Source: Caldilineaceae bacterium (GTDB taxonomy: Bacteria; Chloroflexota; Anaerolineae; Caldilineales; Caldilineaceae). Taken from it: a stretch of 64,000 bases of DNA. The stretch is from NCBI GenBank assembly GCA_026708085.1, contig JAPOVP010000007.1, positions 1-64,000 of the forward strand, written 5' to 3'. The notes below the pieces were generated by a model. That model made no database searches. It was not told the DNA's origin and was given only the letters and a program-made list of their open reading frames with translations. The position numbers were made by a program, and so were the translations under genes. Shown piece after piece: positions 36 to 14,739 of this stretch (its first letter is position 1; every line of letters begins with the position of its first letter).

Positions 36-206
36 AACGCCCCCTCTCCTAAAACCTCGCGCCGCAGCGAGTGTGAGGGCAATGCGAAATTGTCGTCCCG
101 CGGCGACCCGCGCCTCCCCCCACGTCGTGGCTCGTCCCGAATGTGAGCCAGCCCAGACAAGCCAGGCGAGGCAACGCCCAAGCAGCCCCAACCTGCCGCC
201 TCCACC

Positions 207-231
207 GTAGGGGCACCCCTTGTGGGTGCCC
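207..231. repeat. GTAGGGGC hairpin repeat, CACCC type
   Basis: GTAG is followed by a perfect 8-bp stem GGGCACCC/GGGTGCCC around the loop CTTGT (211-231). This is the best-preserved CACCC-type member of a family with about nine copies in the window. Confidence 0.8.
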
Positions 232-272
232 AAGCCCGCCGCCCCAAAACGCGCCGCCCTGCCATATGCCCC

Positions 273-298
273 CGTAGGGGCACCCCCTGTGGGTTCCC
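273..298. repeat. GTAGGGGC hairpin repeat, degenerate
   Basis: This copy has the conserved GTAGGGGCACCCC start, but the right arm reads GGGTTCCC, giving one mismatch, and the loop is altered. It marks the left edge of the first unit of the tandem duplication described at 275-1950. Confidence 0.7.
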
Positions 299-492
299 TC
301 TTCAGTACGCGGCGCCCCTTCGCGTCGCTCCGCGCATCCAGAGCAGTTGGAAATTCTCCGCATTCCTCCGCGGCCCTCCGCGGATCAAGAGAAGTCAGAT
401 GTTCTTCGTAGATATCCCGTTTCAGGCTAACGTCAGCGAACCCCAATTGCCCTTCCAGAAAGATCCACGCGAAACCATGACGAAAGCCCTTC

Positions 493-524
493 AAAACAGA
501 AAACACCCGCAAACATGCAGGTGT
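493..524 (-). terminator. Rho-independent terminator of first small gene
   Basis: Read on the minus strand, the stem ACACCTGCA/TGCGGGTGT (one T-G pair) with a 4-nt loop is followed by TTTTCTGTTTT. It lies 40 bp after the stop of the gene at 564-881. The second unit has the same structure with the T-G pair replaced by C-G, so the fold is conserved. Confidence 0.75.
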
Positions 525-563
525 GTCTACACCATATGTGTCCGAAATGTTGACCGTTCGCCG

Positions 564-881
564 TCATTCCTCCGCGACGCTGCGCCTCCTTTCCCTGAGC
601 ATCAGCCCTATCCAGACCTGCGCACCGCCTAGCACCAGAGCCAAAAAGCCTGCAATAGCGGAGAATATCACCCGTGTCGTCTGAGCCGCTGCATGCACTT
701 CAGATCGTAAGGCGACCACCTCCGTTCGTACCCCCTCTACATCGACCTTAGTAGCCAAATGCTCGTATGCACCTTCCAGTCGAGCGATGCGTTCACCATC
801 AGTTGACCCCTCTTGCGCGGCAACCGGTGTGCAGAACAAGACGAACAGCAGTATCCCCAGAGAGACATGATACAATTTCAT
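564..881 (-). CDS. Small exported coiled-coil protein with C-terminal membrane segment
   Basis: This 105-residue protein has no function I can name. It starts with a typical signal peptide (MKLYHVSLGILLFVLFCTPVAAQ, cleavage expected after VAA). A charged helical stretch (about residues 30-65) with heptad-like spacing follows, containing ARLEGAYEHL and VEGVRTEV. A hydrophobic segment (about 72-95) and a basic tail (RERRRS) end the protein. I start it at MKLYH because a promoter -10 box at 944-949 places the transcript start downstream of the longer GTG frame at 951-953. The ribosome-binding site is weak. The paralogue at 1425-1784 is 14 residues longer. The layout resembles XhlA-type or other small coiled-coil membrane proteins, but I would not assign it. 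Confidence 0.65.
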   Translation of the reverse strand: MKLYHVSLGILLFVLFCTPVAAQEGSTDGERIARLEGAYEHLATKVDVEGVRTEVVALRSEVHAAAQTTRVIFSAIAGFLALVLGGAQVWIGLMLRERRRSVAEE

Positions 882-943
882 CTGATATTTTTTCTCGCTC
901 TCTGATTCCGGTTCCCTGTCCTCCCTGACACCTGCGTAGTACA

Positions 944-972
944 AATGTATCACTCCCTACAAGTTTTTTCAA
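944..972 (-). promoter_or_regulatory. Sigma70-like promoter of first small gene
   Basis: On the minus strand a -35 box TTGAAA (967-972) and a -10 box TACATT (944-949) are separated by exactly 17 bp. The paralogous unit keeps both boxes and the spacing at 1850-1878 although the spacer sequence differs, which supports function. Confidence 0.7.
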
Positions 973-1040
973 GGCTTTTTCAGGGAAGTTGTGGACCAGT
1001 ATCGGGGTAATCTTCACCATCCATCCCTCAGCGAGTGCCC

Positions 1041-1065
1041 GTAGGGGCACCCCTTGTGGGTGCCC
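1041..1065. repeat. GTAGGGGC hairpin repeat, CACCC type
   Basis: This is a perfect copy of the 8-bp stem GGGCACCC/GGGTGCCC with the CTTGT loop. It lies between the two units of the tandem duplication. Confidence 0.8.
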
Positions 1066-1106
1066 AAGCCCGTACCCCCCAAAGCGCCATCCAGCCGAAT
1101 CCCCCC

Positions 1107-1131
1107 GTAGGGGCACCCCTTGTGAGTGCCC
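1107..1131. repeat. GTAGGGGC hairpin repeat, CACCC type with one mismatch
   Basis: The left arm GGGCACCC is intact and the right arm reads GAGTGCCC, so one pair is lost. It marks the start of the second duplicated unit. Confidence 0.75.
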
Positions 1132-1352
1132 TCTTCAGTACGCGGCACCCCTTCGCGTCGCTTCGTGGACCCAGAGCAGCTGATAGTTCTCCTCGTCCCT
1201 CAGTGGACCAGAAAAGGTGTTGCCGTTCCTCGTGCCACGCCGTGGATCAAGGAAAGTCAGATGTTCTTCGAAGATATCCCCTTTCAGGCAACCGTCAGCG
1301 AACCCCAGTTGCCCTTCCACAAAGATCCATGCGAAACAATGGCAAAGACATT

Positions 1353-1386
1353 TCAGAACAAAAAACACCCGCAAATGTGCGGGTGT
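1353..1386 (-). terminator. Rho-independent terminator of second small gene
   Basis: On the minus strand ACACCCGCA/TGCGGGTGT forms a perfect 9-bp stem with a 4-nt loop, followed by TTTTTTGTT. It lies about 40 bp after the stop of the gene at 1425-1784. Compared with the first unit, the base change in the stem improves pairing. Confidence 0.8.
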
Positions 1387-1424
1387 GACTGCACGGTCTG
1401 TTTCCAACTATTGACCGGTCACCG

Positions 1425-1784
1425 TTATTCCTCCGCGACGCTGCGCTTCCTTTCCCTGAGCATCAGCACAATCCAGACCTGCGCGCCGCCTAGCACCAGA
1501 GCCAAAGAGCCTGCCAAACCGGCAAATATCACCCGTGTCGTCTGTACTGCTGCATGAATTTCGGATCGTAAGGCGACCACCTCGGTTCGTAACCTCTCTA
1601 CTACAGTTTGTGCCCTCTCTACTTCGGTTCGTACCCCCTCTACATCGACCTTAGTGGCCAAATGCTCGTATGCGCCTTCAAGTCGAGCAATGCGTTCACC
1701 ATCAGTTAACCCCTCTTGCGCGGCAACGGGTGTACAAATCACGACAACCAGCAGTAACCCCAGCACGACATGATACAATTTCAT
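1425..1784 (-). CDS. Small exported coiled-coil membrane protein, paralogue of 564-881
   Basis: This 119-residue protein has the same plan as its neighbour: signal peptide (MKLYHVVLGLLLVVVICTPV, then AAQ), an acidic coiled-coil region, a hydrophobic segment (GLAGSLALVLGGAQVWIVLM) and a basic tail. Its coiled coil carries 14 extra residues (ERAQTVVERLRTEV), equal to two heptads, which look like an internal repeat of the VRTEV segment. The start is chosen at MKLYH because the promoter at 1850-1878 leaves no room for the longer GTG frame. The partner or target is unknown. Confidence 0.65.
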   Translation of the reverse strand: MKLYHVVLGLLLVVVICTPVAAQEGLTDGERIARLEGAYEHLATKVDVEGVRTEVERAQTVVERLRTEVVALRSEIHAAVQTTRVIFAGLAGSLALVLGGAQVWIVLMLRERKRSVAEE

Positions 1785-1849
1785 CTCTATTCTCTGTTCT
1801 CGATCTCGACCCTTGGCTCCCTGCCCCTTTCTGGCACCTGTGTAGTACA

Positions 1850-1878
1850 AATGTATCACTCTCTACCAATTATATCAA
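1850..1878 (-). promoter_or_regulatory. Sigma70-like promoter of second small gene
   Basis: On the minus strand there is a -35 box TTGATA (1873-1878), 17 bp, and a -10 box TACATT (1850-1855). The -10 box and spacing match the first unit, and the -35 differs by one base. About 50 bp of upstream sequence (GTGGACCAGT, CGGGGTAATC) is also conserved between the units. Confidence 0.7.
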
Positions 1879-2005
1879 GGCTTTTTCAGAGGAATTGTGG
1901 ACCAGTTTCGGGGTAATCCAGACCATCCGTCCCTCAGCGGGTGCCCTTACTCCTCGCGCGCAGCAGTTCACTAAAAACTAAAAACTAACCACCAAAAACT
2001 GCCCT

Positions 2006-14598: not shown

Positions 14599-14622
14599 GT
14601 AGGGGCACCCCTTGTGGGTGCC
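14599..14622. repeat. GTAGGGGC hairpin repeat, CACCC type
   Basis: Stem GGGCACCC/GGGTGCC with the CTTGT loop, losing only the last pair. It lies 46 bp after a CAGGC-type copy in the same orientation. Confidence 0.8.
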
Positions 14623-14739
14623 TCACTCAAGGGCGCTTTGTGAAACTTTGTGACTCTCGTGGAAGGACAACATGATGGGACCGCAAGTACCAGTCCAGAC
14701 AAATGCCAACGACTCCTGACCACTGACCCGCGGTTCCTC

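Follow-up and report, generated by a model that had tools for sequence, protein, structure and literature searches.

What protein do the paired small genes at the start of this contig encode, and what keeps two copies of them there? The window analysed (64,000 nucleotides from a Caldilineaceae bacterium) lies at the start of contig C41, in a genome of 6.24 Mb. A reading of the sequence alone had described a duplicated promoter-gene-terminator unit near its left end, and such a unit is present as a two-copy direct repeat in which each copy carries an intact minus-strand open reading frame. Delimited by direct repeats D1–D6, unit 1 (205–1038, minus strand; the downstream copy, B type) starts at a REP-like element at 205 and contains REP-like palindromes, a terminator, a gene and a promoter. 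Unit 2 (1039–1949, minus strand, its right end approximate; the upstream copy, A type) follows directly. The duplication itself is of an ordinary tandem kind and concerns a one-gene transcription unit that is real and under selection; of greater interest is the wider family, which forms arrays and whose stalk lengths change stepwise. On balance, the product is probably a small membrane-anchored, self-associating rod that serves as a surface spacer or scaffold, its length set by the number of heptads and its unit tandemly duplicated.

The encoded protein

From open reading frame, homology and heptad analysis, the copy 1 coding sequence occupies 564–881 on the minus strand (105 aa, ATG at 881) and that of copy 2 occupies 1425–1784 on the same strand (119 aa, ATG at 1784). 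The two proteins are 87% identical, and copy 2 is longer by two heptads, which the copy alignment places in a 42-nt insertion at 1590–1631 (minus strand; stalk residues 52–65) that is missing in copy 1. Both have the same predicted layout of a signal peptide, a helix, an LATK neck, a heptad stalk that is short in copy 1, and a C-terminal membrane anchor. The sequence-only description of a small exported coiled-coil membrane protein fits well, with a signal-type N-terminus, perfect a/d heptads and a C-terminal hydrophobic segment. The hydrophobic N-terminus ends in VAAQ, VFAQ or VFAP; next come a helix such as ERIARLEGAYEH, LATK, the heptads, the hydrophobic segment and a basic tail. About 20 residues separate the predicted signal peptide from the neck. 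When the lysine immediately after LAT is assigned to position e, the a and d positions of the stalk are 100% hydrophobic (V, I, L, M, F, A, Y) in five of five proteins, as compared to a hydrophobic fraction of 0.12–0.21 at the other stalk positions; in none of the other six registers does the value at a/d exceed 0.56. In the same five proteins, the 19-residue hydropathy maximum of the C-terminal part is 1.9–2.2, a level consistent with a membrane anchor.

The LATK neck (residues 42–45) is encoded at 747–758 in copy 1 and at 1650–1661 in copy 2, both on the minus strand, and is proposed to form a β-layer. An AlphaFold2 model of a single chain, calculated from four sequences with modest confidence (mean pLDDT = 68.6, pTM = 0.29), consists of two helices (3–43 and 48–118) with a break at the neck motif (residues 44–47 in copy 2). 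According to the available text of PMC4786415, a local β-layer arises where a trimeric coiled coil carries insertions; its consensus is [aliphatic]-A-T-K-[polar]-[DE], the downstream register starts at e, and the same motif begins the stalk of DUF1640 membrane proteins in prokaryotes and mitochondria. The neck of the window proteins, LATKVD, has V at the polar position of this consensus; A is found there in G008, G009 and G014, and the neck of G001 reads LASKVD. A register restart at e directly after the layer was found in all five proteins. Since LATK with this restart matches the β-layer and DUF1640 description as far as the source text gives it, the protein is best read, by analogy, as an oligomeric, membrane-anchored β-layer coiled-coil stalk. 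A trimer with type I topology would be consistent with these features.

Database searches added little to this picture. No Pfam family scored above its cut-off for the window proteins; the DUF1640 family PF07798 matched neither copy at E ≤ 1, nor copy 2 at E ≤ 0.01, and copy 2 had no match in Pfam, NCBIfam, PHROGs or PADLOC at E ≤ 0.01. For the family as a whole, these libraries and a PDB profile search returned weak coiled-coil matches, the best from the PDB being the Lpp lipoprotein (E = 0.0025). Profile libraries handle the family poorly because coiled coils match many families or none. Literature searches with the peptide EHLATK found no related protein as judged by title, and no paper was found that joined Caldilineaceae, sponge and coiled-coil, or MCUR1, CCDC90 and prokaryotic.

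The motif raises the alternative of an assembly factor like MCUR1/CCDC90, that is, a bacterial DUF1640 relative that scaffolds a membrane complex instead of acting as a surface spacer. The motif and layout are held in common (PMC4786415, available text), and two of nine family members scanned singly, the paralogues L050 and L042, are above the PF07798 cut-off of 33.5 bits (scores of 51.3 and 34.8). In yeast, the homologues of MCUR1 assemble into a large hetero-oligomeric complex of the inner membrane that is required for proline use, as the accessible part of PMC7519068 describes, and the syntenic gene adjoins an aminotransferase class V gene and an S49 peptidase gene, with dnaK downstream in those relatives whose contigs extend that far, a setting that would suit such a factor. 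Against it, the window proteins themselves lack a PF07798 match, and coiled-coil repeats yield many spurious family matches. The signal peptide would leave the rod facing outside, whereas the soluble domains of Put6 and Put7 face the matrix (PMC7519068, same part). The neighbourhoods of the paralogues also mostly differ, and in three of nine (L043, L044 and L047) there is a predicted secreted fibronectin-type-III protein, in two cases together with a trypsin-like domain; the presence of such a protein is a better fit to a surface role. An assembly factor of this kind is accordingly considered unlikely, although it is the strongest of the rival explanations.

The fibronectin-type-III loci lie at L043 7473–10253, L047 4366–7110 and L044 9997–14001, in genomes G014, G009 and G011. 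A DUF1156 gene is close to both paralogue arrays of G004 (two of the nine neighbourhoods). Neither kind of neighbour was found at L042, L049, L048 or L050, nor at the window locus; L042 and L049 are an orthologous pair as judged by eye.

Boundaries, control elements and selection

The ends of the window units coincide with a dispersed REP-like palindrome. In a palindrome scan, exact consensus copies were found on the plus strand at 208–231 and at 1042–1065, the latter at the junction of the two units, with a copy carrying one mismatch at 1108–1131 and a diverged copy at 275–298 (TAGGGGCACCCC at 275; repeat family D6). The right end of unit 2 stops at GTGCCCTTA, which is the edge of a REP-like element, and an element is present at this position in G005 and, with a change, in G006. 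The palindrome TAGGGGCACCCCTTGTGGGTGCCC has 132 copies in the genome at ≤2 mismatches as compared to 0 for the control. A further copy is present in the window at 14600–14623, among the matches listed, and several occur as doublets or arrays with a spacing of about 44–71 nt. A search of the genome for a RAYT-type transposase gave no Y1_Tnp match, with a control search that was positive in 5 of 14. Duplication of the unit through these palindromes is plausible.

The sigma70-like promoter with 17-bp spacing that had been noticed in each copy was recovered by a consensus scan and by its conservation in relatives: TTGAAA-17-TACATT at 944–972 for copy 1 and TTGATA-17-TACATT at 1850–1878 for copy 2, both on the minus strand. 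The scan by itself is within chance, with two matches in 4 kb against 1.3 expected. The relatives are more informative. All eight copies with a readable promoter, from seven congeneric genomes, have a −35 of TTGA[T/A/C]A, a spacing of 17 and a −10 of TAC[A/T]TT, and the −10 block is invariant in 12 of 14 columns versus 22 of 58 upstream (p = 0.002). Upstream of four paralogues in G014 and G009, inspection by eye identified TTGACA-17-TACTTT in three and TTGAAA-17-TACTTT in one; a loose −35/−10 pattern matched none of the five upstream stretches of a tandem array in G004.

From the −10 to the start region, a TACATTTGTACT block (938–949 in copy 1 and 1844–1855 in copy 2, minus strand) is conserved over the eight copies. 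The exact 12-mer has two matches in the genome, which are the two copies, and since the reversed control pattern also has two, its rarity alone proves nothing. We take the block to resemble one half of the cyanobacterial LexA box. SOS control was considered and set aside: the region upstream of lexA does not contain TACATTTGTACT, a relaxed palindrome gave one match there against 1.6 expected, and no operator common to lexA and the small membrane protein genes was found.

An intrinsic terminator hairpin followed by a T run was located by scanning, folding and pair conservation at 503–524 for copy 1 and 1365–1386 for copy 2, again on the minus strand. The consensus scan is once more within chance (three terminator-like sites in 4 kb against 2.5 expected); however, both hairpins are much more stable than shuffled sequences (z = −4.5 and −5.4). 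A T-G pair in copy 1 is indeed C-G in copy 2, as first noted. Across the eight readable copies the stem is always kept, with 71 of 72 pair cells paired and a single change in G008 that breaks a pair. Five of the nine pairs vary, but the change is confined to one side (C to T or A to G in the 5' arm, wobble pairs being retained), and not one two-sided change was found in the eight copies. The original term "covarying" is thus withdrawn, since one-sided changes with pairing kept fit constraint rather than covariation.

A second argument had been that the flanking sequence drifts while the control elements are kept. Between the two copies, identity is 33/39 in the promoter, 24/28 in the terminator and 184/225 in the other non-coding DNA (217/276 with the leader included), and neither the promoter (p = 0.82 without the leader, 0.53 with it) nor the terminator (p = 0.47) is better conserved than its surroundings. 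Visibly lower identity is confined to the leader (33/51) and to a short stretch that precedes the terminator (28/39). From this comparison, the two copies alone do not show selection on the control elements. What does favor selection on the transcription unit comes from elsewhere, namely the hexamers, the 17-bp spacing and the stem that are kept in eight of eight copies, together with the coding sequence. The suggested comparison of dN/dS between copy 1 and copy 2 gave 0.34 (dS = 0.222, dN = 0.076) with an excess of synonymous changes (Fisher p = 0.006, from rounded counts); both copies are under purifying selection. For G014 against G009 the ratio is 1.17, based on few changes (3 synonymous, 10 non-synonymous). 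The dS between copies (0.22) is close to that of two flanking genes compared with G001, G005 and G006 (0.16–0.35), and the copies therefore diverged at about the time these genomes did.

A gene without conserved homologues in other genomes would have been a different matter; instead, orthologues occupy the same place in six further genomes (G001, G005, G006, G008, G009 and G014), which with its own genome makes 7 of the 17 in the genus. The recommended look for further copies raised the number of such genes in the genome itself to three, the additional one being located on contig C60. A single copy is found at the locus in G005, G008, G009 and G014, and the contigs of G001 and G006 end there. 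Assemblies break at or near the locus in G001, G006 and the genome itself (L037 end, L038 end, L035 end and window position 1), as expected of repeats, and copy number there may be underestimated. In the gap between the stalk gene and dnaK, G005 has a Fic/DOC gene (L036 4448–5959), G008 has a Schlafen/AlbA_2-type gene (L040 7074–8303) and G014 has neither; the gap is possibly an insertion-prone spot.

The variable copy number, along with a promoter and terminator whose conservation between copies does not exceed that of the surrounding DNA, is what a selectively neutral tandem duplicate would show, with a redundant second copy that is intact merely through its youth. This is harder to accept than the assembly factor, and improbable, given that dN/dS is well below one at a dS similar to between-species divergence, that both reading frames and both sets of control elements are intact, and that the length difference is exactly two heptads.

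The relatives also indicate how the two copy types have been reshuffled. Sites where the copies differ were scored as copy-2-like:copy-1-like, with G006 read from two contig ends that were kept apart. In G005, the upstream region and 5' half of the gene are copy-2-like (37:6) and the 3' part is copy-1-like (4:14, p = 3e-6). G006, over its two contigs, gave the same counts, and G001 is copy-2-like through the gene (37:6 and 14:3). The terminator signal is mixed, at 8:8 in G005, 6:8 in G006 and 5:10 in G001. With moderate support, trees of the two halves disagree: the 5' tree, which speaks for an old duplication, groups copy 2 with G001, G005 and G006 (bootstrap 128/200), while the 3' coding trees group copy 1 with G005 and G006 (154/200) and copy 2 with G001 (166/200), values that become 161/200 and 108/200 when the terminator is added. 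The gene region of G005 and of G006 is a mosaic of the two copy types, and the pattern may be read as the outcome of recombination in which two diverged copy types were joined at a breakpoint within or close to the heptad repeats. Since the relatives each have one copy or a contig that ends at the locus, import of a divergent allele into the lineage of the window genome is an alternative to an old duplication.

Stalk lengths, paralogue arrays and distribution

At the locus, stalk length varies in whole heptads. Counted after the motif and with the anchor, and for the seven of eight copies in which the syntenic gene can be read whole, there are 58 residues (copy 1, G014, G008 and G009), 65 (G005) or 72 (copy 2 and G001), or steps of 0, +7 and +14 residues. 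A second group of four paralogues in G014 and G009 has 41, 48, 55 and 62 residues after the motif, again in multiples of seven, and three tandem paralogues in G011 have 38, 41 and 45, which are non-heptad steps. Five tandem genes of G004 (L045 7011–10483) have 100, 166, 111, 100 and 140 residues composed of 7- and 11-residue units behind identical N-terminal sequences. Upstream of four of these genes the DNA is identical at 236–239 of 240–242 aligned positions, and the fifth is identical at 185–196 of 241–245; with such near-identical upstream DNA, tandem copying of a gene plus its flank recurs in the family. A further paralogue pair is present in G004 at L046 5903–7548.

The distribution of the family was followed with a 49-column profile of the neck region. 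It matches 16 of 17 genomes in the genus, with 1 to 28 matches each, some of which are several stretches of one gene. It has no match in 20 genomes from other members of the same taxonomic family and one in 24 from the rest of the class, the latter marginal (5e-4). A search with a single protein agreed: 16 of the 17 congeneric genomes had a match, as compared to 0 of 83 outside the genus. Sampling of the phylum yielded matches in 23 of 300 other genomes (15 from family f53, 5 from f64, 2 from f107 and 1 from f55), and in five of the 23 the best E-values are just 6e-5 to 3e-4. All nine loci retrieved from f53 and f64 (L055–L063) carry an open reading frame of the family, for example ERLARLEGAYEHLATKAD followed by a stalk and a C-terminal hydrophobic segment, and there are up to 20 profile matches per genome in these two groups. 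The neck motif is thus the mark of an array-forming family with a patchy distribution over a few lineages of Chloroflexota.

A phage- or mobile-element-derived small membrane protein of the DUF2730 or XhlA type is very improbable: at E ≤ 0.01 DUF2730 matches 9 of 17 family members and phrog_736, a phage family of unassigned function, 15 of 17, and two of nine exceed the DUF2730 cut-off of 24.9 bits when scanned one by one (27.0 and 28.2 bits), but copy 2 matches neither and the locus is stable between chromosomal genes in seven genomes. As for direct relatives on phages or plasmids, a two-pattern scan of viral contigs gave 134 pattern matches with none confirmed, and phage and plasmid records held no relative of the query, which was one 65-aa paralogue and not a window protein.

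The arrays invite a broader and more tentative proposal, which we consider possible rather than probable, that recombination itself drives length diversification. Units of gene plus flank would amplify in tandem and recombine within the stalk repeats to give lineage-specific rods of quantized length and constant neck on the surface or membrane face. On this proposal, expansion in a few Chloroflexota lineages, with no match among the other genomes sampled from the taxonomic family of the genus, is what a lifestyle-tied trait, possibly host association, would be expected to show.

Proposed role and comparison with known systems

In the preferred reading of a membrane-anchored rod, each unit would be transcribed on its own and contain a single gene, encoding a small type I membrane protein whose signal peptide is removed and whose C-terminal segment anchors it. 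The extracytoplasmic part would self-associate, most likely as a parallel trimer, to form a short rod made up in order of the N-terminal helix, a β-layer neck at LAT(K), the heptad stalk and the membrane anchor. Such a rod could serve as a surface spacer or scaffold, with the number of heptads setting its length. The unit would have been duplicated in tandem at about the time the close relatives diverged, plausibly by recombination between the flanking REP-like palindromes, with both copies staying under purifying selection and recombination among the heptad repeats altering stalk length and making hybrid genes.

An unclassified small gene pair is now tied to a structurally defined motif, and it points to a multicopy family in which one genome has as many as 28 profile matches, some being stretches of one gene. 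The whole-heptad changes and mosaic genes provide a natural series for testing the importance of stalk length, and the patchy expansion of the family can be tested against lifestyle.

Three known systems offer a comparison. The Bdr proteins of Borrelia are multicopy paralogues with central repeats of varying number and a C-terminal membrane segment. By this general description alone, they resemble the window family in all three respects; their repeats are different and they belong to another phylum. The DUF1640/CCDC90-like proteins have a conserved N-terminal head domain. In this family (PF07798; MCUR1, CCDC90B, Put6/Put7 and prokaryotic homologues), integral membrane proteins have an ATK motif where the C-terminal coiled-coil stalk begins, as outlined in the available text of PMC4786415, whereas the window proteins are below Pfam detection, have a signal peptide and present a short helix alone before the neck. 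The window proteins look like DUF1640-type proteins in sequence, yet fall outside Pfam membership. With the β-layer coiled coils of DUF3782/Tcar0761, as far as the same text of PMC4786415 describes them, they share [aliphatic]-A-T-K-x-[DE] and a downstream register at e; there, 14 consecutive nonads follow one another, while the window proteins have one neck motif, heptad repeats and a membrane anchor.
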